Below, in pieces: positions 33,137-51,737 of a stretch of DNA of 64,000 bases. The stretch comes from a bacterium. GTDB taxonomy: Bacteria > Elusimicrobiota > Elusimicrobia > Elusimicrobiales > UBA9959. The notes under the pieces are model-generated. The model saw nothing but the letters and a program-made list of their open reading frames with translations. It had not been told where the DNA came from and ran no database searches. The translations under genes and the position numbers were made by a program. Position 1 is the stretch's first letter. The number at the start of each line of letters is the position of its first letter. The stretch spans positions 124,001 to 188,000 of the forward strand of contig JAJYJH010000001.1 of assembly GCA_021789695.1 (NCBI GenBank), given 5' to 3'.

Positions 33137-33949
33137 ATGAAACCCAACGACTTTATTGATTTACTCGACAAGGCGAGGATGTACGACCTGACGCAGCCGC
33201 TCAGCGTGCATACCCCCCCATGGCCGAGTTATATGCCGCTGCAAGTGCAGTACTTCAAGCGCATAGCCGGCGCGCACATGGGGCAGGGCGCCAACGGCCA
33301 GATCATAAAGACCTCCAACCACGTGGGGACCCACATGGACGGAGAGATACACTTCTACGGCGCCGGCCGCACCATAGGCCAGGTGCCCATGCGCGAGTGG
33401 ACCGGGCCGGCCGTGGTCGTAGACATCTCGAAGGACGTTTCCGACTACTCGCTCTACGAGCCCGAGCTGCTGATGAAGCGCGCCGACATCCGCAAGGGCG
33501 ACATCCTGATTATCAACACCGGTTACCACAAATACGCCTGGTACGAGAAGGGGGCCGACGAGGTGCGCTACTTCGTCAAGCACCCGGGACCCGGCCCGCG
33601 CTTCCACAAGTGGGCGCTCGACATGAAGTTCAAGTGGATTGGAGTGGACTGCGGCTCGGCCGACCACCCGATGAACACGATCATCCGCAACTGGCACCAG
33701 AAGTCCTTCATAGAGGCCGAGAACAAGCTGCTGGCCGACTACGGCAAGAAGTGGGACGATATGTTCCCGTTGGAAGAGTACTACCAGGTGATGCACCTGA
33801 AGCTGTTCCCGAAGCGCCTCGTGCACGCCGAGAACCTCGGAGGCGACATCGATAAACTTTCCAACAAGCGCTGCTGGCTCGGCTTCTTCCCGCTGAAGGG
33901 CATGGAGCTCGAATCCTCGATGGGGCGCGTGGTGGCCTGGACGGCCTGA
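33137..33949 (+). CDS. Cyclase-family metal-dependent amide hydrolase
   Basis: The 270-residue protein belongs to the cyclase/kynurenine-formamidase-like family (PF04199), in which manganese or zinc enzymes hydrolyse cyclic or formyl amides. The metal motif HxGTHxDxxxH is complete (H62, H66, D68, H72: NHVGTHMDGEIHF). DLTQPLSVHTPPWPSY is a typical beginning. It precedes the molybdenum hydroxylase genes, though a hairpin lies between them. The substrate is unknown; a ring-opening hydrolysis of a heterocycle is a fair guess. Confidence 0.82.
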   Translation: MKPNDFIDLLDKARMYDLTQPLSVHTPPWPSYMPLQVQYFKRIAGAHMGQGANGQIIKTSNHVGTHMDGEIHFYGAGRTIGQVPMREWTGPAVVVDISKDVSDYSLYEPELLMKRADIRKGDILIINTGYHKYAWYEKGADEVRYFVKHPGPGPRFHKWALDMKFKWIGVDCGSADHPMNTIIRNWHQKSFIEAENKLLADYGKKWDDMFPLEEYYQVMHLKLFPKRLVHAENLGGDIDKLSNKRCWLGFFPLKGMELESSMGRVVAWTA

Positions 33950-33967
33950 AGGCGGGCGGAGGTCGCA

Positions 33968-33999
33968 GGCCGGGAGCGAGCCTCCCGGCCCGGCTTTTT
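33968..33999 (+). terminator. Hairpin after the cyclase gene
   Basis: GGCCGGGAG (33968-33976) and CTCCCGGCC (33982-33990) form a 9-bp stem with a 5-nt loop, followed by CGGCTTTTT. An alternative 6-bp stem ends exactly at the T run. It would separate or tune expression of the hydroxylase genes. Confidence 0.6.
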
Positions 34000-34023
34000 A
34001 GAGGGTAAGCGGAGGGTGAAATA

Positions 34024-34917
34024 ATGCCGATAACAGCTGAGTTTGAGTACGTAAAGCCTAGGGGCATGGAGGAGGCTCTCCATGTCTTTTCGCTTTACAA
34101 GGAAAAGGCGCGGGCTCTGGCCGGGGGCACGGACTTGCTGGTCCATCTCAAGGAGGGTCTGGCGAGCCCTGAGGTCGTGGTAGACCTTAAGGGAATAGAC
34201 GAGCTCGGGGGCCTGTCGTTCTCCGGCGGTGCGCTCCGGATAGGCGCGCTGACCACCTTCGCCGCCCTGATAGAGTCCGCGGCGGTGAAAAAGAATTTCC
34301 CCGTCCTTTGGGAGGCCGCCCTAACCGTGGCCTCCACCGGCGTGAGGAACCGGGCCACCGTGGCAGGCAACATCTGCTCCGCGGTCCCATCCGCGGACTC
34401 GGCTCCCGCCCTGGCCCTCTACGAAGCGGAGGTGCTGGTCGCCGGCCTGAAGGGCGGGAGGCGTATCCCGATAGGCGAGTGGTTCACCGGTCCCAAACGC
34501 ACCGCGCGCGCTCCGGAGGAACTGGTCACTGCCGTCGAGCTAAAAGTCCCCGGCAAAAAGCACGGCGGCTGCTACATGAAGCTTTCGCGCTACGAGGGCG
34601 AGGACCTGGCGCAGGGCGGCATAGCCGCCCTGGTCCTGCCGGACAACACCTACCGCGTGGCGGCCTGCGCGCTGGGGCCGGTACCGGGCCGCTGTCCCCG
34701 GACCGAAGCGGCGCTTAACGGCGGCAAGCTCTCCCCAAAGGTCCTGGAGAAGGCCAGGGAGGCCCTGCTGGCCGAGATAGCGCCCATCAGCGATATCCGC
34801 TCCTCCAGGGAATACCGCCTGCACATGGCGCAGGTCATGCTGGAGCGCTCGCTGCAGAACGCCGTTTCCCGTCTTTTCGGCAAGGGCCCGAAGTACGGCA
34901 CGGCCAATATCTGCTGA
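34024..34917 (+). CDS. Xanthine-dehydrogenase-family FAD-binding subunit
   Basis: This is the medium (FAD) subunit of a three-subunit molybdenum hydroxylase. The 297-residue protein has AGGTDLLVHL (FAD/PP-loop) near residue 38 and ATVAGNICSAVPSAD, the second conserved FAD motif, around 115. It contains a CO dehydrogenase-type C-terminal FAD domain. The gene order FAD-[2Fe-2S]-Mo is common. GGAGGGTGA gives a strong ribosome site. The substrate is not given by the sequence. Confidence 0.9.
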   Translation: MPITAEFEYVKPRGMEEALHVFSLYKEKARALAGGTDLLVHLKEGLASPEVVVDLKGIDELGGLSFSGGALRIGALTTFAALIESAAVKKNFPVLWEAALTVASTGVRNRATVAGNICSAVPSADSAPALALYEAEVLVAGLKGGRRIPIGEWFTGPKRTARAPEELVTAVELKVPGKKHGGCYMKLSRYEGEDLAQGGIAALVLPDNTYRVAACALGPVPGRCPRTEAALNGGKLSPKVLEKAREALLAEIAPISDIRSSREYRLHMAQVMLERSLQNAVSRLFGKGPKYGTANIC

Positions 34918-34930
34918 ACGGAGCCGACTA

Positions 34931-35401
34931 ATGAAGAACCACAACATCACATTCAAACTTAACGGGGAGGCGGTCTCGCTGTCCGTGGCCCCCAACGACG
35001 TGCTTCTGGACGTGCTGCGCGGCAGGCTGGGGATAAAGAGCCCCAAGGTCGGCTGCGACCGCGGCGACTGCGGGACCTGCACCGTGCTGCTGAACGGCAG
35101 GACGGTACGCTCGTGCCTGGCGCTGGCCGTGGAGGCCGACGGCGCCGAGATAGTGACCCTCGAGGGCGCCAATACCACCCGCGAATGGACCAGGAAGCTG
35201 CAGGCCAGGTTCCACTCTAAGAACGCCTTCCAGTGCGGCTTCTGCGCGCCAGGGGTGATACTCTCCGCGACCGAGCTGCTGGAGAAGAACGCAAAGCCCT
35301 CTTCCCACGACATTAAGGAGGCCATCGCGGGCAATCTCTGCCGCTGCACCGGGTACGAGCCCATCGTGGAAGCCATCTCCGAGACTGCGAAAGGGAAATG
35401 A
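34931..35401 (+). CDS. Xanthine-dehydrogenase-family [2Fe-2S] subunit
   Basis: This is the small electron-transfer subunit. The 156-residue protein has the plant-ferredoxin cluster GCDRGDCGTC (C42, C47, C50) plus C62, and the second cluster motif QCGFCAPG with NLCRCTGY. It starts 13 bp after the FAD subunit gene, and its stop overlaps the next start as ATGA. Confidence 0.95.
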   Translation: MKNHNITFKLNGEAVSLSVAPNDVLLDVLRGRLGIKSPKVGCDRGDCGTCTVLLNGRTVRSCLALAVEADGAEIVTLEGANTTREWTRKLQARFHSKNAFQCGFCAPGVILSATELLEKNAKPSSHDIKEAIAGNLCRCTGYEPIVEAISETAKGK

Positions 35402-35829
35402 CTATGAAGGTGATGCTGGTGATTGTGCCCGCCGTTCTGCTCGCGGCCTGCGCCGTGCCGCAGGGCGGCATGAAGATGGAAAAGGGCTCTGTCGTAAGCC
35501 TATTCGGCGTCCAGGACGATACGCGGACCGGCCCGTTCGTGGACCAGATTGTCCAGATTGTCACTATTCCCCCAGGCGCCGGCGTGGTGGTAAATGGCGG
35601 CATGATGGGCCACGCCCCGCTCAAGGTCTCGGTCAGGCGCTACTGGCGCGGTGCGGCGGGCAGCATGGTGCTGGACACGACTTCCGTGGACGCCCTGCCC
35701 GCGCCCGGCCAATGCGCTCAAGGCGGGGTATACGGGAACAACAACCGCAGGCTTCCCTCCCGGATAGTTTTTAACATGACCGACTGCGCCAATCCCGCGC
35801 GTCCGGCGCCGGCGGCTGGAAAAAAATAG
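35398..35829 (+). CDS. Small PEGA-like lipoprotein inside the hydroxylase operon
   Basis: The 143-residue protein has a lipoprotein signal: a hydrophobic stretch VMLVIVPAVL then the lipobox LAAC (Cys at 17). A PEGA-like segment follows (IPPGAGVVVNGGMMGHAPLKV). It contains two further Cys (about 119, 133). The ATGA overlap with the iron-sulfur subunit and the 22-bp gap to the Mo subunit place it firmly in the operon, yet molybdenum hydroxylases do not usually have such a partner. No function is known to me. It may anchor or cap the cell surface; that is speculation. Confidence 0.75.
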   Translation: MTMKVMLVIVPAVLLAACAVPQGGMKMEKGSVVSLFGVQDDTRTGPFVDQIVQIVTIPPGAGVVVNGGMMGHAPLKVSVRRYWRGAAGSMVLDTTSVDALPAPGQCAQGGVYGNNNRRLPSRIVFNMTDCANPARPAPAAGKK

Positions 35830-35851
35830 CGGCTAGCATAAAGGGGTAAAT

Positions 35852-38251
35852 ATGCGCCTTCAGAAGACGATCTCAAAATCGAACGGGGCCGCGGCGCGGA
35901 ATGACGCGGCGGAGAACCTGGATGTCGTGGGCAAGTCGGTGCAGCGCGTGGACGGCTGGGAGAAGATACGCGGCGTCGCCAGATATACCGACGACCTCGA
36001 GTTCGGGCCAGGCCTGCTCTACGCCGCGCTCGTGGAGAGCCCGCACGCCCATGCCAGGATAAGGGCCATAGACACCTCCGCCGCCGAGAAACTGGAGGGC
36101 GTGCTCAAGGTGGTGACGGGCCGCAACTTCACGCACAAGTTCGGCCTTTACATGAACGACCGGTACATCTTCGCCAGCGACAGGGTGCGCTTCGTAGGAG
36201 AGCAGGTGGCGGCCGTCGTGGCTAACGACCCGAAGATCGCCAAACGCGGTGCGGAGCTGGTGAAAGTGGCCTACGAGGAACTCCCGCCCGTCTTTGACGC
36301 GGTCAAGGCGCTGGAGAAGGATTCTCCGCTGGTGCACCCGGACCTCAAGGACTATTCCCACGTCCCGTGGTTCTTCCCCAAGCCCGGCACCAACATCGCC
36401 CATTGGCGCAAGATCCGCAAGGGCGACACGGCGAAAGGCTTCAGGGAGGCCGACCTCGTGCTGGAAGACACCTATACCGTGCCGCGTTATGCGCACTGCG
36501 CGATAGAACCCCACTCCGCCGTAGGCCTCTACGACGCCTCCGGCCGCCTGACGATGTGGACCTCTTCGCAGTCCCCCTTCACGCAGCGGCACGTCTTCGC
36601 CGAGACGCTCAAGGCCTTCGGCCTGAGCCACAAGGACGTGCGTGTTATAAGCACCTATATCGGCGGCGGCTTCGGCGGCAAGGCCGGCGTGACGATGGAG
36701 ATCATCGCGGCGGCCCTGGCTATCGCGGTTCCCGGACGACCAGTCAAGCTGCTGTGGAGCCGCGCCCAGGAGTTCTACAATACCTATCAGCGCCTGGGGG
36801 TCACGGCGAAGATAAAGATGGGGGCCACGAAGACCGGCAAGATAACCGCGCTGGACTTCAGGCTGCACTGGGACTCGGGCGCCTACGTCGAGTACGGCGC
36901 CAACGTCGTCAACGCGGCCGGGCTTTCGGCCAGCGGCCCGTACAAGGTGGACAACCTGAGCGTGGACTCCATGTGCACCTACACAAACCTGCCGCCGTGC
37001 GGCGCGTACCGCGGCTTCGGCTACTCCGAGTTCCTGTTCGGCCTGGAGTCCCACATTACGCGCATGGCCGAGAAACTCGGCCTGGACCCGGTGGAGTTCC
37101 GCAAAAGGAACGTCATCAGCGAGGGCGACACGCTGCCCTACGGCGCGCACATGAACCCGACAGGCATACGCGAAGCCATAGAGCGGGTGGAGAAGGAAAT
37201 ACGCTGGGGCGTGAAAGAGAAGTCCAAAGATCCGAAGAAGGCCATAGGCAAGTCGGTGGTCTGCTTCTGGAAGGCTCCCGCCATGCCGCCCAACGCCAGC
37301 TCCAGCGCGTTCCTGAAGTTCAACGAGGACGGCAGCCTCAATATCCTGGTCTCCGGGATGGAGATAGGCCAGGGCCTGCTGACCGTGATGGCGCAGATAG
37401 CCTCCGAGGTGCTCAGCGTGCCAGTAGCCAAGATCCGCGTCGAGACGCCGGACACCGACCGCAACCCGTACGAGTGGCAGACCGTCGGCTCGCATGTGAC
37501 CTGGGGCTGCGGCAACGCGGTCAAGCGCGCGGCGCTGGAAGCGAAAGGGCGCATCCTGGACCTGGTCCAGCGCGTGCATTGTCTCGATAAGAGTACGCTG
37601 TACCTGGAGGACGAACGCGTGAAGTGCCGTACTAAGCCGGACTTCGCGCTGCCGTTCAGGGACTTCGTGATAAACGGCATCCAGGCGGAGGACTATACCT
37701 TCAAGGGCGGGCCGATCATGGGCTCCGGCGTGTTCATGCCGGAGTTCGCCTCGGCCATCAGCGACCCGGAAACCGGCCAGGGCGGCCATCCCAACGTGCA
37801 CTACACCACTGGCTCGGCCGGCGTGATCCTGGAGATAGACCGCGAGACCGGCAAGATGAAGATAAAGAAGGTAGCGCTGGCCGTGGACTGCGGCAAAGCC
37901 ATCAACCCGGATCTGGTGAAGGGCCAGGTGGTGGGCGGGTTGCTGCAGGGCTTCGCCACCGTGCTCTATGAGGACATGCGCTACGACGCCAAGGGCCGTC
38001 AGCTGAACCCCAACTTTTCGGACTACAAGATCCCGACGGCGCTGGATATGCCGGAAGAGGTGGTGCCGATAATAATCGAGGTGGCCCAGCCAGACGGGCC
38101 GTTCGGGGCGCGCGGAGTCGGAGAACACACGATGATCCCCTGCGCGCCGCTGATCGCCAACGCGGTGGAGGACGCACTGGGCGTGCGTATAAAAGCGATG
38201 CCCGTGACCAAGGAAAAGGTGGCCCTTGCCGCTAAAGCCGAGAAAAAATAA
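35852..38251 (+). CDS. Xanthine-dehydrogenase-family molybdopterin-binding catalytic subunit
   Basis: This is the large subunit that hydroxylates heterocycles or aldehydes at a Mo centre. The 799-residue protein begins (about 25) with the conserved VVGKSVQRVDGWEKIRGVARYTDD, has the molybdopterin glycine motif IGGGFGGKAGV, the Arg-bearing AYRGFGYSE, and the catalytic Glu at about residue 758 (GARGVGEH). The family covers many substrates, so I do not name one. Neighbouring oxamate-carbamoyltransferase-type genes suggest a purine, hydantoin or related ring. Confidence 0.9.
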   Translation: MRLQKTISKSNGAAARNDAAENLDVVGKSVQRVDGWEKIRGVARYTDDLEFGPGLLYAALVESPHAHARIRAIDTSAAEKLEGVLKVVTGRNFTHKFGLYMNDRYIFASDRVRFVGEQVAAVVANDPKIAKRGAELVKVAYEELPPVFDAVKALEKDSPLVHPDLKDYSHVPWFFPKPGTNIAHWRKIRKGDTAKGFREADLVLEDTYTVPRYAHCAIEPHSAVGLYDASGRLTMWTSSQSPFTQRHVFAETLKAFGLSHKDVRVISTYIGGGFGGKAGVTMEIIAAALAIAVPGRPVKLLWSRAQEFYNTYQRLGVTAKIKMGATKTGKITALDFRLHWDSGAYVEYGANVVNAAGLSASGPYKVDNLSVDSMCTYTNLPPCGAYRGFGYSEFLFGLESHITRMAEKLGLDPVEFRKRNVISEGDTLPYGAHMNPTGIREAIERVEKEIRWGVKEKSKDPKKAIGKSVVCFWKAPAMPPNASSSAFLKFNEDGSLNILVSGMEIGQGLLTVMAQIASEVLSVPVAKIRVETPDTDRNPYEWQTVGSHVTWGCGNAVKRAALEAKGRILDLVQRVHCLDKSTLYLEDERVKCRTKPDFALPFRDFVINGIQAEDYTFKGGPIMGSGVFMPEFASAISDPETGQGGHPNVHYTTGSAGVILEIDRETGKMKIKKVALAVDCGKAINPDLVKGQVVGGLLQGFATVLYEDMRYDAKGRQLNPNFSDYKIPTALDMPEEVVPIIIEVAQPDGPFGARGVGEHTMIPCAPLIANAVEDALGVRIKAMPVTKEKVALAAKAEKK

Positions 38252-38291
38252 GCCCCAAGGACCAATGAACGCCGGTGTAAAGAGGTAAGAG

Positions 38292-39053
38292 ATGAAGATC
38301 GCTTTGTGCCAGTACGATATGAAGTGGGAGGACAAGGAGGCCAACAAGAGCAGGATAGAGGAACTGCTCGCCGACTGCAAGCGCCGCTCCGAGATAGACT
38401 GGCTGATCTTCTCCGAAATGACGCTTTCGGGCTTCACGATGAACTCCGGCGTCTCCGAACTGACCGACGAGGACCGCGCGTTCTTTTCGGGCCTGGCCGC
38501 CGAGAACGGCATCAACCTCTCCTACGGCGGCGTCGAGAGCAACCGCAACAACCTGATAACTCTGGACCGCAATGGCAACAGGGTCAACGCCTATTCCAAG
38601 ATACACCTCTACGCCTTCGGCGAGGAGGACAAACACTACACTCCCGGGGCCAGGCAGGAGGTTTTTGAACTGGAGGGGTTGCGCGTGGCCCCCGCGGTCT
38701 GTTTCGACCTGCGCTTCCCCTATCTGTTCTGGAACCTGGCGGAGAAGGCCGACGTATACGTGGTGATAGCTGCCTGGCCGATGAGGCGGGCCGAGCAGTG
38801 GATGACGCTGCTGCGCGCGCGGGCGGTGGAGAACCAGGCTTACTGCATAGGCGTGGACCGCGTCGGCCTGGAAGGGAAGATAGAGTATTCGGGCAACTCG
38901 ATGTGCTACGACCCGCTGGGCAAGGTGGTGATGGACTGCGGCACGGCGGAAGGGATACACGTCGCGGAAGTGCCGCTGGATAAGGCCCTGGTGGCCAGGA
39001 CCCGCGAGCGTTTCCCGTTCCTCGGAGAGCGCAAGAATTTCCCGTGGCAGTGA
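38292..39053 (+). CDS. Carbon-nitrogen hydrolase (nitrilase superfamily, omega-amidase-like)
   Basis: The 253-residue protein has a complete nitrilase-fold triad: E42 (FSEMTLSGF), K103 (YSKIHLYAF) and C137 (AVCFDLRFP). This form most resembles omega-amidase/YafV-type amidases, which cleave small oxo-acid amides, rather than carbamoylases. By context it could hydrolyse oxamate or a similar amide. AGAGGTAAGAG gives a good ribosome site. Confidence 0.87.
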   Translation: MKIALCQYDMKWEDKEANKSRIEELLADCKRRSEIDWLIFSEMTLSGFTMNSGVSELTDEDRAFFSGLAAENGINLSYGGVESNRNNLITLDRNGNRVNAYSKIHLYAFGEEDKHYTPGARQEVFELEGLRVAPAVCFDLRFPYLFWNLAEKADVYVVIAAWPMRRAEQWMTLLRARAVENQAYCIGVDRVGLEGKIEYSGNSMCYDPLGKVVMDCGTAEGIHVAEVPLDKALVARTRERFPFLGERKNFPWQ

Positions 39054-39093
39054 CTCGGAGGTGATTGCAACGCAAAGAGTCCGGAACTAAAAT

Positions 39094-39924
39094 ATGGATT
39101 TGATCTCATACGGCGACAGCATCCCGGACGGCGATTATAGACTGCATTCGGCCTTCGAGAACGCCATCAATTTCCGCAGGGGAAAGCTGATCGTCTCCCT
39201 TGTCCCCCCCCGCGTCGGAGCTGGCCCGCAGAACGTGGTGCTCAGCCAACTGCCTTCCGGGGCCAGGCGCCTGCGTTCCACCCGCTTCTACTTCTACATC
39301 GACGAGAACCGCCTGCGCAAGGAGCCGGAGGCGCTCTATTCCTCCACCGTGCCGCTGCTGGACGCGGAGCCGGAGACCGTGGAGGCCAACACGGCGGCGC
39401 TGGCCGCGGTCCTGGCGCGCACCTCTCCGCCCAAGAGCCTGGCTTTCATCTTTGAGCCGCGTTTGGAAAAGGAGTTCTCGCGCGTCTTCGAGCGGCGGCT
39501 GCTGGCCAGGTTCAAGAAAGCCGTACGCTATTTCCGGGCGGGAGATTATCCGCGCGGCGTAAGGACCATGCACGGCCTGGGCTTCGGCCTGACGCCATCC
39601 GGGGACGATTTTATAAGCGGGCTGCTCTCCGGCTTCAACTTCGCGCTGCTGAGCCTGCGCTTTGACACGGCTGCACGCATAGAGAACATCTTCTTCCACG
39701 CCGAGGGAGGCAATCTTATCTCTGACGTATTCCTGCGCTCCTCTTACGAGGGAAAGGTGACGGCCAAGGTGCTGCGCCTGCTGAAGGCGCTGGCGGGCAG
39801 GAACCGCGAGGAGCTGGCCGCGTCGGCGGCCGGCGCCCTGGCGAGCGGGCACACTTCCGGGGCGGATTTCTGCGCGGGGCTGGTCTTCGCGCTGCAGGAC
39901 GTTTTTGGCGCGAATAATGGATAA
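39094..39924 (+). CDS. allH: DUF2877 protein, AllH/YlbF-like subunit of oxamate carbamoyltransferase
   Basis: The 276-residue protein belongs to DUF2877, whose hallmark GLTPSGDDFISGLLSGF is present near residue 166. In E. coli the protein of this family (YlbF, now AllH) is needed with FdrA (AllF) and YlbE (AllG) for oxamate carbamoyltransferase activity, which splits oxalurate to oxamate and carbamoyl phosphate. The ATG at 39094 has only a weak GGAA before it; an in-frame TAA directly upstream rules out an earlier start. A perfect GGAGGTGAT is 29-37 nt upstream. Confidence 0.85.
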   Translation: MDLISYGDSIPDGDYRLHSAFENAINFRRGKLIVSLVPPRVGAGPQNVVLSQLPSGARRLRSTRFYFYIDENRLRKEPEALYSSTVPLLDAEPETVEANTAALAAVLARTSPPKSLAFIFEPRLEKEFSRVFERRLLARFKKAVRYFRAGDYPRGVRTMHGLGFGLTPSGDDFISGLLSGFNFALLSLRFDTAARIENIFFHAEGGNLISDVFLRSSYEGKVTAKVLRLLKALAGRNREELAASAAGALASGHTSGADFCAGLVFALQDVFGANNG

Positions 39925-39938
39925 AGGGGAATTGCGAC

Positions 39939-41492
39939 ATGATAAAGACTGTTATCAAGAAGGGCGCGTATTTCGACTCGGTTTCCCTTATGCAGGTGGC
40001 CAAGAAGCTGAATTCCGTCCGCGGGGTCTCCGACTCGGCGGTCGTTATGGCCACGAAGGAGAACAAGGGGATAATAAAGGCCTCCGGCCTGCTGACCCGG
40101 GAGATACTCGACGCCGGCGACAATGACCTGGCTATAGCCGTCAGGGCGAGCACTCCCGCGGCTGCGGATGCCGCTTTCGCGGCGGCCGAAGAACTGCTCA
40201 ACAGGAAGCCTTCTCGCGACCTCACGGGCGGGGAGCGCAAGGCCGCCGGCCTGGAGGACGCCGTCAAGTCCCTGCCCGGCGCCAACATGGCCATCGTCTC
40301 CGTGGCCGGCCGCTTCGCTGGGCCGCTGGCCGCTGACTGCCTGGAGAAAGGGCTCAACGTCATGCTGTTCTCGGACAACGTGCCGCTCGAGACCGAGCTG
40401 GAGCTTAAAAAGGCCGCGCTCAGGAAGGGCCTGCTGGTGATGGGCCCTGACTGCGGCACGGCCATCATCAACGGCGTCCCGCTGGCTTTCGCCAATTCCG
40501 TGAGGAGAGGAAACATAGGCGTAGTGGCGGCCTCCGGCACAGGCGCGCAGGAGGTGACTTCGCTGATCTCGAACGAGGGCGCCGGCATCTCGCAGTGCAT
40601 AGGCACCGGCGGCCGCGACGTGAAACTGGAGGTGGGAGCGCTGACCTTCCTGCAGGGCCTGAAGCTGCTGGCCACTGACCCGGCCACGGAGGTGATACTG
40701 CTGGTCTCCAAGCCACCGCACCGGTCCATCCTCAAAAGGATCTCGGCTGAGATAAAGCGCGTAAAGAAGCCTGTGGTAGCGGTATTCCTGGGCGGCGAGG
40801 TCGGGGAGAGGGTAAAAGGGGACTTCTATCCCGCGCGGACCCTGGAGGAGGCCGCTTTCAAGGCCGCGGCGCTTGGTAAAGGACAGGAAGTCAACAAGGC
40901 CCGGGAGCTCATCTACGATTTAAACCTGAAAGCCGGGGAGCTGGCCAGAAAGGAGGCCGCTAAGAAGAAAAATAGCCGCTTCCTGCGCGGCCTTTTTTCC
41001 GGAGGCACTTTCGTCAGCGAGGCGCAGGTCATACTGCCGGAGCTTATCGGCAAGGTCCTTTCCAACGCGCCGCTCGACAAGAAGCACAAGCTGGCGGACT
41101 CAATGGAACTCTCCGGGCACTCCGTCATAGACCTCGGAGAGGACGAGTTTACCGTCGGCAGGCCGCACCCGATGATAGATTTCACCCTGCGCGACAAACT
41201 GATAGTTTCGGAGGCGGGGAACCCGGCGGTCTCGGTGCTGCTGCTGGACCTGGTGCTTGGCTACGGCTCCAACCCGAAACCGCTCGACGATATCCTGCCC
41301 GCGCTGCGCGAGGCGTTCCGCGCCAACAAGGAACTTTCCGTGGTGGCTTCGGTCACCGGTACCGAGGCCGACCCTCAGGTGCGCTCCAGAGTGGTGAAGG
41401 GGCTTGAGGCCGCCGGCGTGCTGGTGATGCCCTCCAACGCCGGGGCCTGCCGGCTGGCTGGCGAGATAATACGGCTTTCCGTTAAGAGGTGA
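39939..41492 (+). CDS. allF: FdrA-family protein, AllF-like subunit of oxamate carbamoyltransferase
   Basis: The 517-residue protein is an FdrA homologue, related to succinyl-CoA synthetase alpha: it has SVAGRFAGPLAADCLEKGLNVMLFSDNVPLE, the signature MGPDCGTAIINGVPLAFAN and ASGTGAQEVTSLISNEGAGISQCIGTGGRD. In E. coli FdrA/AllF is part of oxamate carbamoyltransferase. It lies 14 bp after the DUF2877 gene and 3 bp before the DUF1116 gene, the E. coli set. AAGGGG precedes the ATG. Confidence 0.9.
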   Translation: MIKTVIKKGAYFDSVSLMQVAKKLNSVRGVSDSAVVMATKENKGIIKASGLLTREILDAGDNDLAIAVRASTPAAADAAFAAAEELLNRKPSRDLTGGERKAAGLEDAVKSLPGANMAIVSVAGRFAGPLAADCLEKGLNVMLFSDNVPLETELELKKAALRKGLLVMGPDCGTAIINGVPLAFANSVRRGNIGVVAASGTGAQEVTSLISNEGAGISQCIGTGGRDVKLEVGALTFLQGLKLLATDPATEVILLVSKPPHRSILKRISAEIKRVKKPVVAVFLGGEVGERVKGDFYPARTLEEAAFKAAALGKGQEVNKARELIYDLNLKAGELARKEAAKKKNSRFLRGLFSGGTFVSEAQVILPELIGKVLSNAPLDKKHKLADSMELSGHSVIDLGEDEFTVGRPHPMIDFTLRDKLIVSEAGNPAVSVLLLDLVLGYGSNPKPLDDILPALREAFRANKELSVVASVTGTEADPQVRSRVVKGLEAAGVLVMPSNAGACRLAGEIIRLSVKR

Positions 41493-41495
41493 AAC

Positions 41496-42890
41496 ATGAA
41501 GCTCTTTGAATCCGAACTTAAGGTCGTGAACATAGGACTTGAATCCTTTCGGCAGGGCCTGAACGATTCCGGAGTGAAGAACGTGCAGGCGCAGTTCAAA
41601 CCGCCGCTCTCCGCCGAAACCTCGCTGTTCGCGAGAACCGCGAAGCGCGCGGCCAGGATAACGAGGGCCAATAAGAAAGCCCTGGACAGGATACTGGCCG
41701 CCAGGCCCGCGCTGGTAGGTATGGGCATCGCGCTCGACGTCGTCCCCGGCATGAGAAAGGACCTGATCCTGCACGCGGGCCCCCCCGTCTCCTGGGAGAA
41801 GATGTGCGGCCCCATGCGCGGCGGCGTCATGGCCGCTTTGATGTACGAAGGCATGGCCAAGACCCCGGGTGAAGCGGCTAGGCTCGCCGCCTCCGGGAAG
41901 ATAAAGTACGCCCCCTGCCACGAGCACGGCGCGGTCGGGCCGATGGCCGGCATTGTCTCTGCGTCGATGCCGGTTTTCATCGTTAAGGACGAGGCGCACG
42001 GCAATTACTCCTACGCCACCCAGAACGAGGGACTGGGAAAGGTGCTGCGCTACGGCGCCTATTCCACGGAGGTTATCGAGCGGCTGAACTGGATGGAGAA
42101 GGAACTCTATCCGGCGCTGAAGTCCGCGCTAGAGTTCCTCGGGCGCATAGATCTTAAGACCATGGTCGCGCAGGCGCTGCACATGGGCGACGAGGTGCAC
42201 AACCGCAACCGGGCCGGTACGTCGCTCTTCTACCGCGCGATCGCTCCCGCCGTCATAAGGACCTGTAAGGATCCCGAGCGGGCGGCGAAGGCGCTGGATT
42301 TTATCAACGGCAACGACCACTTCTTCCTGAACCTGTCGATGGCGCTCTCCAAGGCCTCTCTGGACGCGGGGCGGAACGTGAAAGATTCCAGCCTGGTGGT
42401 CGTGATGGCTCGCAACGGCACGGAATTCGGCGTGCAGCTCTCCGGGACCGGCGGCCGGTGGTTCACGGGACCCGCGCCGGTGCCGGACGCGCTCTACTTC
42501 CCCGGCTACTCCAAGGCGGACGCGAATCCGGACATAGGCGACTCGGCGATTACGGAAACCAATGGGCTGGGCGGCTTCGCTATAGCGGCGGCGCCTGCCA
42601 TCGTGCAGTTTGTGGGAGGCAGCGCTTCGGACGCGGCCGGCTATACGCTGGCTATGTACGGCATCACGGCGGGAGAGAGCGATAGCTACAAAATCCCGTC
42701 GCTGGACTTTCGCGGGACCCCTACTGGGATAGACGTGATAAAGGTGGCGAAGACAGGTGTCCTGCCGTTTATCGACACCGGAGTGGCGCACAAGGACCCC
42801 GGCGTGGGCCAGGTGGGAGCCGGCGTGCTTAGCGCCCCTCCCGAACCCTTCGCCCGCGCCTTCGAACACTTTGCCCGTTCCCTGAAGTGA
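41496..42890 (+). CDS. allG: DUF1116 protein, AllG/YlbE-like subunit of oxamate carbamoyltransferase
   Basis: The 464-residue protein is a DUF1116/YlbE homologue. Recognisable blocks include GPPVSWEKMCGPMRGG, HEHGAVGPMAGI and RNRAGTSLFYRAIAPA with NGNDHFFLNLSMA. YlbE/AllG is the third subunit in E. coli. GAGGTGA lies before the ATG, 3 bp after allF, and a terminator follows at 42908. The combination allH-allF-allG is contiguous and complete here. Confidence 0.9.
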   Translation: MKLFESELKVVNIGLESFRQGLNDSGVKNVQAQFKPPLSAETSLFARTAKRAARITRANKKALDRILAARPALVGMGIALDVVPGMRKDLILHAGPPVSWEKMCGPMRGGVMAALMYEGMAKTPGEAARLAASGKIKYAPCHEHGAVGPMAGIVSASMPVFIVKDEAHGNYSYATQNEGLGKVLRYGAYSTEVIERLNWMEKELYPALKSALEFLGRIDLKTMVAQALHMGDEVHNRNRAGTSLFYRAIAPAVIRTCKDPERAAKALDFINGNDHFFLNLSMALSKASLDAGRNVKDSSLVVVMARNGTEFGVQLSGTGGRWFTGPAPVPDALYFPGYSKADANPDIGDSAITETNGLGGFAIAAAPAIVQFVGGSASDAAGYTLAMYGITAGESDSYKIPSLDFRGTPTGIDVIKVAKTGVLPFIDTGVAHKDPGVGQVGAGVLSAPPEPFARAFEHFARSLK

Positions 42891-50345: not shown

Positions 50346-51737
50346 CTAAATCAGCCGGGGTTTCGCGCGGCGCAGGAAGCGTCCGCGGGGCTTTTCCGGA
50401 AAGACCAGCGACCCCGACTCGGCTACCAGTTCCCCCCGAAGTACGGTGTACTTAGGAAAGCCGTAAAGCTCCCGGCCCTGCCAGGGCGAATAGTCCGTGT
50501 TGTGCCGCAGGCGGCGCCAGTCCGTCTTCACGGCCGCCGACGGGTCTATTACGGCGAAGTCAGCGTCGAAGCCGGGTTTTATGAAGCCCTTTCCGGCAAG
50601 CCCCATAATCCTGGCAGGATTCTCGCAAAGCACTTTGACCAGGCGTGGCAGCGTGATCTTTCCCGGCCTGACGCCGTAGGTATAGGCCGCGGCCAGCAGG
50701 GTCTGTGCGCCTGGCAGCCCCATCGGCAGCCGGCGTACGTCCCCGCCCCAGGCTCCCTTCTGCGCGCTGGTGAAGGTGCAGTTGTCGGTGGCGAGGACCT
50801 GCAGTTCTCCCGCCGAAAGCGCCTTCCACAGGCCTTCGTTGTCCGCGGCGGAGCGCAGCGGCGGGCAGCAGGAATAGAGGTGGCCTCGCGGCCCGCGCAG
50901 CAGGTCGTCGTCGAGGACCAGGTAATGAGGGCAGGTTTCCGCCATCGTTCCGGCCCCGTCCTTCCTGGCGCCGGCGACTATCGCGGCCGAGCCTGCCGAG
51001 GAAAGATGGACAAAATAGACCGGAGCCTTGGCGGCCGCCGCCAGGCGCGCTACTCTGCCTACGGCCTCCGTTTCCGTGAAGTCCGGGCGCGACATCGGCA
51101 GCGCCCTTATCCCCATGCGCGGGGCGTAGATGTCGGACAGCAGGTCTATGACCGGCCCGTTCTCGGCGTGGACGCAGATCAGTGCCCCCAGCTCGCGGGC
51201 GGCGGCGAACGCCCTGGCCAGGGCCGCGTCGTCGGACATGAGGCCCCGGGCCCCGTAGGCGGTGAACATCTTGAACGTCGGGGCCCCGGCGCGGACGGCC
51301 TCCTTCATGCGCTTTTCCGGAGCCGGCATGCGGTCCAGGCCTGTCAGCATGCAGTGGAAGGAGAAATCCGCGTAGCAGCGTCCCTCGGCTTCTTTCAGGC
51401 GGGCGCGCAGCCCCTTGAGCGGGCTTTCTCCCGGCCCTTGGCCGGTGTAGTCGATAAAGGTGGTCACGCCGCCGCATACCGCGGCGGCGGAACCAGTGCG
51501 GAAATCGTCCGAGGTGTAGTTCCCGGGACCTGTCTTCAGCCGGAAATGGACGTGAGGATCAATTATCCCAGGCAACACCAGCAGGCCGCGGGCGTCGATG
51601 ATCCGCGCGGCTTCCGGCTTGCGGCCAGACGGAGGTAGTACGGCGGCGACGCGCCCTGCAGAGACGAAGACGTCGCGCCTAGCGACGCCCTGGCCGCTAG
51701 CGACCCTGCCGCCGGTTATCGCCAGTTCGAAGTTCAT
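50346..51737 (-). CDS. Dihydropyrimidinase/hydantoinase-family amidohydrolase
   Basis: The 463-residue protein is a cyclic-amide hydrolase of the dihydropyrimidinase/D-hydantoinase type. All binuclear metal ligands are present: H62 and H64 (DPHVHF), carbamylated K156 (FKMFTAYG), H190 (CVHAENG), H244 (FVHLSS) and D318 (ATDNC). AETCPHYL and SCCPPLR fit too. One oddity is TDNC where most have TDHC. It may act with the purine/hydantoin-type cluster at 33-43 kb. Allantoinase is an alternative; dihydroorotase is less likely. Confidence 0.85.
   Translation of the reverse strand: MNFELAITGGRVASGQGVARRDVFVSAGRVAAVLPPSGRKPEAARIIDARGLLVLPGIIDPHVHFRLKTGPGNYTSDDFRTGSAAAVCGGVTTFIDYTGQGPGESPLKGLRARLKEAEGRCYADFSFHCMLTGLDRMPAPEKRMKEAVRAGAPTFKMFTAYGARGLMSDDAALARAFAAARELGALICVHAENGPVIDLLSDIYAPRMGIRALPMSRPDFTETEAVGRVARLAAAAKAPVYFVHLSSAGSAAIVAGARKDGAGTMAETCPHYLVLDDDLLRGPRGHLYSCCPPLRSAADNEGLWKALSAGELQVLATDNCTFTSAQKGAWGGDVRRLPMGLPGAQTLLAAAYTYGVRPGKITLPRLVKVLCENPARIMGLAGKGFIKPGFDADFAVIDPSAAVKTDWRRLRHNTDYSPWQGRELYGFPKYTVLRGELVAESGSLVFPEKPRGRFLRRAKPRLI

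Follow-up and report, generated by a model that had tools for sequence, protein, structure and literature searches.

The window analysed here is a 64,000-nucleotide stretch of an Elusimicrobiota genome (contig JAJYJH010000001.1, positions 124,001 to 188,000; the assembly has 2.45 Mb in 63 contigs and 95.7% completeness). Between positions 33137 and 42890 it carries a run of nine genes encoding a cyclase-family hydrolase, a three-subunit molybdenum (Mo) hydroxylase, a small lipoprotein-like protein, a nitrilase-fold amidase, and relatives of AllH, AllF (FdrA) and AllG, the subunits of the E. coli transferase AllFGH (Table 1). An earlier note, made from the sequence alone, had described this run as operon-like, and all nine open reading frames were indeed found intact on the + strand at the positions it gave, with tight spacing (gaps of -4 to 74 bases); the cluster is flanked by ispG on one side and by rimP-nusA on the other. 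The 74-base gap lies 3' of the cyclase gene. A terminator-like 9-pair hairpin (33968-33990) is located between this gene and that of the flavin adenine dinucleotide (FAD) subunit, so the cyclase transcript may be separate or attenuated. The earlier note was also correct that no allantoin-pathway gene adjoins the run; it overlooked the hydantoinase-like gene listed last in Table 1.

Table 1. Genes of the cluster and a possible associate, with positions in the window and the matches on which the assignments rest
Feature	Position	Strand	Evidence or remark
Cyclase-family PF04199 metal hydrolase, proposed barbiturate ring-opening	33137..33949	+	Pfam 112.5 bits
Mo-hydroxylase FAD subunit	34024..34917	+	PF00941, PF03450
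Mo-hydroxylase [2Fe-2S] (FeS) subunit	34931..35401	+	PF00111, PF01799
Small lipoprotein-like protein	35398..35829	+	Between FeS and Mo subunits; no family
Mo-hydroxylase Mo-binding subunit, proposed uracil to barbiturate	35852..38251	+	PF02738, PF20256, PF01315
Nitrilase-fold amidase (CN_hydrolase), proposed malonamate to malonate and NH3	38292..39053	+	PF00795
AllH-like transferase subunit (DUF2877)	39094..39924	+	PF11392, 74 bits
FdrA/AllF-like transferase subunit	39939..41492	+	NF004760, 494 bits (cut-off 433); PDB 3dmy, 302 bits
AllG-like transferase subunit (DUF1116)	41496..42890	+	PF06545, 322 bits (cut-off 27); tree
Dihydropyrimidinase/D-hydantoinase-like amidohydrolase, possible associate	50346..51737	-	TIGR02033, 349 bits (cut-off 393)

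A scan of named genomes returned 80 loci, the closest of which belong to metagenome-assembled genomes of Elusimicrobia. As the earlier note had suggested checking, the same set (three-subunit Mo-hydroxylase, cyclase, AllH-FdrA-AllG and amidase) was found in other genomes and recurs in about ten phyla. Cyclase and/or Mo-hydroxylase genes adjoin AllG in 52 of the 54 loci that have enough flank on the relevant side (four Elusimicrobiota contigs ending upstream were excluded), and the two remaining loci are both from Kiritimatiellae. Such conservation rules out a chance neighbourhood; the gene set is a real module. The usual order, AllH-FdrA-AllG-cyclase-FAD-FeS-Mo, is seen in records of Bdellovibrionota, Cloacimonadota, Verrucomicrobiota, Lentisphaerota, Bacteroidota, Chlorobiota, Eisenbacteria and KSB1, and in the Elusimicrobiota related to the window the cyclase and Mo genes lead the cluster and a nitrilase is added. 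The same parts, differently ordered, also make up two divergent clusters, L179 and L180; in L179 they form one run. The lipoprotein-like protein, which has no Pfam or NCBIfam match and is restricted to Elusimicrobiota loci (n = 13), is probably a passenger. Separately, a thiolase-like gene (c22) was seen upstream of AllH in five loci from several phyla (L041, L050, L061, L032 and L043), in three of them paired with a ChsH2-type OB-fold partner.

The assignment of the last three genes to the AllH, AllF and AllG families held, as PF11392, NF004760 and PF06545 were all matched, and the three families occur together in the cluster. The only characterised AllFGH, the oxamic transcarbamylase of E. 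coli, uses oxalurate and works with the kinase AllK (PMC11326118). The window shares with it the three protein families, carbamoyl phosphate as the proposed product and a carbamate kinase homologue in the genome; it differs in that the kinase is unlinked and the cluster adds the Mo-hydroxylase, cyclase and amidase. The two systems also belong to separate clades. In a careful tree, the window AllG lies outside the allantoin clade of E. coli, Klebsiella and Enterococcus (own clade 99/99, allantoin clade 100/100), and FdrA is likewise apart from the allantoin enzymes (quick tree only, Shimodaira-Hasegawa-like approximate likelihood ratio test support 97). Allantoin loci have the order F-G-H-kinase beside allC, allD and allE, whereas the window has H-F-G without allantoin genes. 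Other AllFGH trios accompany cyanuric-acid-hydrolase-type enzymes, xanthine permeases, isochorismatases or a cytosine permease; with partners so varied, the trio alone is no proof of oxalurate as substrate, and it is clear that the AllFGH family acts on several ureides.

The window AllG has an actinobacterial sister clade, whose gene contexts point to pyrimidines. In Embleya, a region of about 21 kb encodes a carbamate kinase, a barbiturase match, a nitrilase-fold enzyme, a three-subunit Mo-hydroxylase, a RutG-type permease, PucR, a CoxG-like protein and AllH-FdrA-AllG. Its ring-opening enzyme scores 595 bits with the solved barbiturase (5hwe) but 324 bits with cyanuric acid hydrolase, and its permease matches RutG with 306 bits, versus 110 for the urate transporter UacT. 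In Nonomuraea, permeases and Mo genes adjoin AllFGH, and a barbiturase 77% identical to that of Embleya lies about 41 kb off. Given this context of permease, Mo-hydroxylase and barbiturase, the substrate of the actinobacterial trio would most simply be ureidomalonate, the homologue of oxalurate longer by one carbon. An enzyme of the AtzD/barbiturase fold is present in the Embleya locus and absent from the window cluster; most simply, the cyclase of the window clade would replace it. Permeases point the same way in other lineages. Among the Cloacimonadota, Bacteroidota and Chlorobiota type clusters, four genomes have an NCS2 permease nearest to UraA/RutG directly after the amidase. Co-occurrence was counted in 160 Elusimicrobiota genomes, 26 with AllG and 134 without: an unlinked RutG-type permease with a pyrimidine signature was found in 12 of the former and in none of the latter (p ~3e-11), and no conserved partners were found beside it in this phylum.

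The amidases suggest malonamate as an intermediate. The clusters of Cloacimonadota, Bacteroidota and Chlorobiota continue with genes for a family III coenzyme A (CoA) transferase and an amidase; among solved structures, this amidase matches malonamidase E2 (1ock) best. The SxxRP signature of malonamidase E2 is kept in 12 of 12 cluster amidases, including Arg158, which presumably binds the substrate carboxylate, whereas three other amidases read SxRQP. Malonamidase E2 converts malonamate to malonate and ammonia (PMC8393822). The window has a nitrilase-fold enzyme in that place; it is the Elusimicrobiota version, present in 27 loci, with PRK10438 as its nearest NCBIfam entry. The CoA-transferase of the related clusters could make malonyl-CoA. 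An isochorismatase-fold hydrolase is encoded upstream of AllH in four Bdellovibrionota loci (L040, L067, L069 and L072) and, as a guess, perhaps fills the same amidase slot. Malonyl-CoA decarboxylase was considered as a general partner and discarded, having been found in only one of 40 cluster genomes; that gene (L078, 6660-8054, Kiritimatiellae) lies 4.3 kb after FdrA-AllG and would fit a malonate product.

The Mo-binding subunit is 63-91% identical within the clade in nearly all loci and scores under every NCBIfam equivalog cut-off. It was rejected as a xanthine dehydrogenase (XDH), with 504.5 bits against a cut-off of 780 and with the purine-binding Glu and Arg replaced: both positions, which we take to correspond to E802 and R880 of bovine XDH, are Ala, with little or no variation within the clade. 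To our knowledge, no gene has been assigned to uracil dehydrogenase so far. Cyclases from different phyla share about 70% identity; 129 of 270 residues are near-invariant, including H62, H66, D68 and H72 of the intact HxxxHxDxxxH metal motif, and the window protein matches the PF04199 profile. An AlphaFold model, informative on the fold only (predicted local distance difference test score 76, poor stretch 26-61), matches isatin hydrolase and kynurenine formamidase. These enzymes share the fold and the metal motif with the window cyclase, but only at about 15-19% identity in structural alignments, and the substrate proposed for the cyclase is barbiturate. Plasmid relatives of the cyclase in haloarchaea and Rhodococcus were set aside as guides to function, as their gene contexts differ.

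The earlier note had predicted a carbamate kinase elsewhere in the genome, and a homologue is present on another contig. This protein of 375 residues scores 256.5 bits against the TIGR00746 cut-off of 358 and keeps 51 of 59 invariant columns; its surroundings, housekeeping genes, were uninformative as a functional clue. In the Elusimicrobiota sample a kinase homologue occurs in 29 genomes, 25 of the 26 with AllG and 4 of the 134 without (Fisher p ~5e-24), and 39 of 40 cluster-bearing genomes have a match. AllG is tracked by two kinds of kinase, the canonical one and a form of 360-400 residues that falls below the curated cut-off.

From these results, we propose that the operon probably encodes an ATP-conserving, oxidative and phosphorolytic route of pyrimidine catabolism via barbiturate and malonamate. 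The Mo-hydroxylase would convert uracil (perhaps thymine too) and water to barbiturate with the release of two electrons, and the cyclase, though not related to the known barbiturase, would take over its role and hydrolyse barbiturate to ureidomalonate. The AllF-AllG-AllH-like complex would then use phosphate to split ureidomalonate, yielding malonamate and carbamoyl phosphate. The latter may be used by the unlinked carbamate kinase, together with ADP, to form ATP, carbon dioxide and ammonia, and the nitrilase-fold amidase would hydrolyse malonamate to malonate and ammonia. In other phyla this last step is assigned tentatively to the malonamidase-E2-like amidase, often accompanied by the CoA-transferase. 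According to Soong et al. (2001), as cited in PMC4051656, the oxidative pyrimidine pathway of Rhodococcus and Nocardia comprises uracil dehydrogenase, barbiturase and ureidomalonase. The proposed route would have barbiturate, ureidomalonate and the end product malonate in common with it, and a true barbiturase lies near the Embleya trio of the sister clade; it would differ in using a cyclase-family enzyme in place of the barbiturase fold and phosphorolysis in place of hydrolysis by ureidomalonase, so conserving ATP. Unlike that pathway, the window-type module is mainly a feature of uncultured, non-actinobacterial lineages. In the literature that was searched, which included few subscription papers, nothing was found that joins malonamate with carbamoyl phosphate or describes this route.

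Several points weigh against this proposal. We infer the substrate of every step from sequence features (gene content, conservation, co-occurrence, trees and the metal motif of the cyclase, which are themselves direct observations). The support for the actinobacterial sister clade is moderate (92/81), and the Mo subunits of Embleya and the window share only 29% identity. The genome that holds the window lacks an NCS2 permease, so the source organism may rely on another transporter or on uracil released by its own turnover. The co-occurrence counts ignore phylogeny and genome size. Moreover, part of the kinase signal could come from another pathway, since carbamate kinase and hydantoinase often lie on one contig in the families f11, f13 and f17, and carbamate kinase adjoins other Mo-hydroxylases in genomes G023 and G025. 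A homologue of the hydantoinase-like protein was found in all 26 Elusimicrobiota genomes with AllG and in 11 of the 134 without; this gene could be a second feed, part of another pathway, or a sign of a different ring-opening step. Finally, the CoA-transferase of the related clusters is also close to CoA:oxalate CoA-transferase.

The same chemistry might act on another cyclic ureide or N-heterocycle, such as a purine breakdown product, a 5-substituted pyrimidine or a cyanurate-like ring, the permeases and malonamidase-like enzymes being partly coincidental. The varied company of other AllFGH trios, including a cyanuric-acid-hydrolase-type enzyme with an NCS2 permease, is consistent with this, as is the lack of a curated equivalog for the Mo subunit. 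We nevertheless regard it as unlikely, because four independent lines of evidence (permease type, barbiturase, malonamidase-like amidase and CoA-transferase) converge on pyrimidine and malonate and because the substrate residues of the XDH type, by the residue mapping that we assumed, are absent from the Mo subunit.

The route given in the earlier note led from a hydantoin-type ring through parabanate to oxalurate, then to oxamate and carbamoyl phosphate, with oxamate hydrolysed to oxalate. The substrate of the characterised E. coli enzyme, the resemblance to CoA:oxalate CoA-transferase and a hydantoinase-like gene 7.5 kb away are in its favour. However, the FdrA and DUF1116 proteins fall outside the oxamate carbamoyltransferase clade, an outcome that the note itself had named as speaking against its route, and the gene order is different. 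Oxalyl-CoA decarboxylase, which normally accompanies the use of oxalate, was found above the cut-off in none of 33 cluster genomes. The related clusters have pyrimidine permeases and a malonamidase-like amidase, and the sister clade a true barbiturase. Oxalurate, oxamate and oxalate are thus rather improbable intermediates. The earlier interpretation was right in kind, as oxidation and opening of a cyclic ureide, its cleavage to carbamoyl phosphate and ATP formation by an unlinked carbamate kinase are all supported, and probably wrong in substrate, which would be a pyrimidine.

It is very improbable that the hydantoinase-like enzyme, rather than the cyclase, feeds the transferase from dihydrouracil or hydantoin while the cyclase and Mo-hydroxylase serve another step: despite its presence in every AllG-bearing Elusimicrobiota genome and a relative (36% identical) immediately upstream of AllH in L080, the gene lies outside the operon on the opposite strand, its matches in other AllG-bearing families are mostly only 32-41% identical, apart from L080 it does not occur in the clusters of other phyla, and AllG nearly always has the cyclase and Mo genes next to it. 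In the window, the hydantoinase-like gene is neighboured by genes for an aspartate-kinase-like protein and a pilus-type ATPase.

Beyond the window, it seems reasonably likely that the pyrimidine route proposed here represents a further catabolic route in about ten phyla, mostly uncultured, with a uracil dehydrogenase, a cyclase-family barbiturase, an ATP-conserving, phosphorolytic ureidomalonate transcarbamylase and unrelated amidases (nitrilase, amidase-signature, perhaps isochorismatase-fold) according to phylum. If so, it would provide testable candidate genes for both uracil dehydrogenase and the cleavage of ureidomalonate, as well as a second, unrelated barbiturase, and RNA bases would join the energy sources of Elusimicrobiota, Cloacimonadota, Bdellovibrionota and others. 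AllFGH would then be a family of ureide phosphorolases rather than a single allantoin enzyme, which would caution against labelling every FdrA-DUF1116-DUF2877 trio as oxalurate-degrading.

Further relatives of the trio were seen in other settings. Many enterobacterial conjugative plasmids (Citrobacter, Klebsiella, E. coli and others), among them NZ_MG252895.1 (L091), carry genes for a cyanuric-acid-hydrolase-type enzyme, an NCS2 permease, DUF2877, FdrA, DUF1116 and a carbamate kinase, a set that is probably an ATP-yielding module for cyanurate or a related ureide. The E. coli plasmid NZ_CP116108.1 (L149, 3807-11017) encodes an isochorismatase-like hydrolase, DUF2877, FdrA, DUF1116, a carbamate kinase and a cytosine permease, and many E. 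coli plasmids have DUF1116 matches of the same kind. In E. coli K-12, the yah cluster (L150, 4592-11174) encodes a second trio of AllFGH type, accompanied by a carbamate kinase family protein and an amidohydrolase. Azospirillum (L156, 429-8140) offers a further setting of oxidised-ureide type for DUF1116, with a Mo-hydroxylase, an amidase, HpxZ and a short DUF1116 protein.

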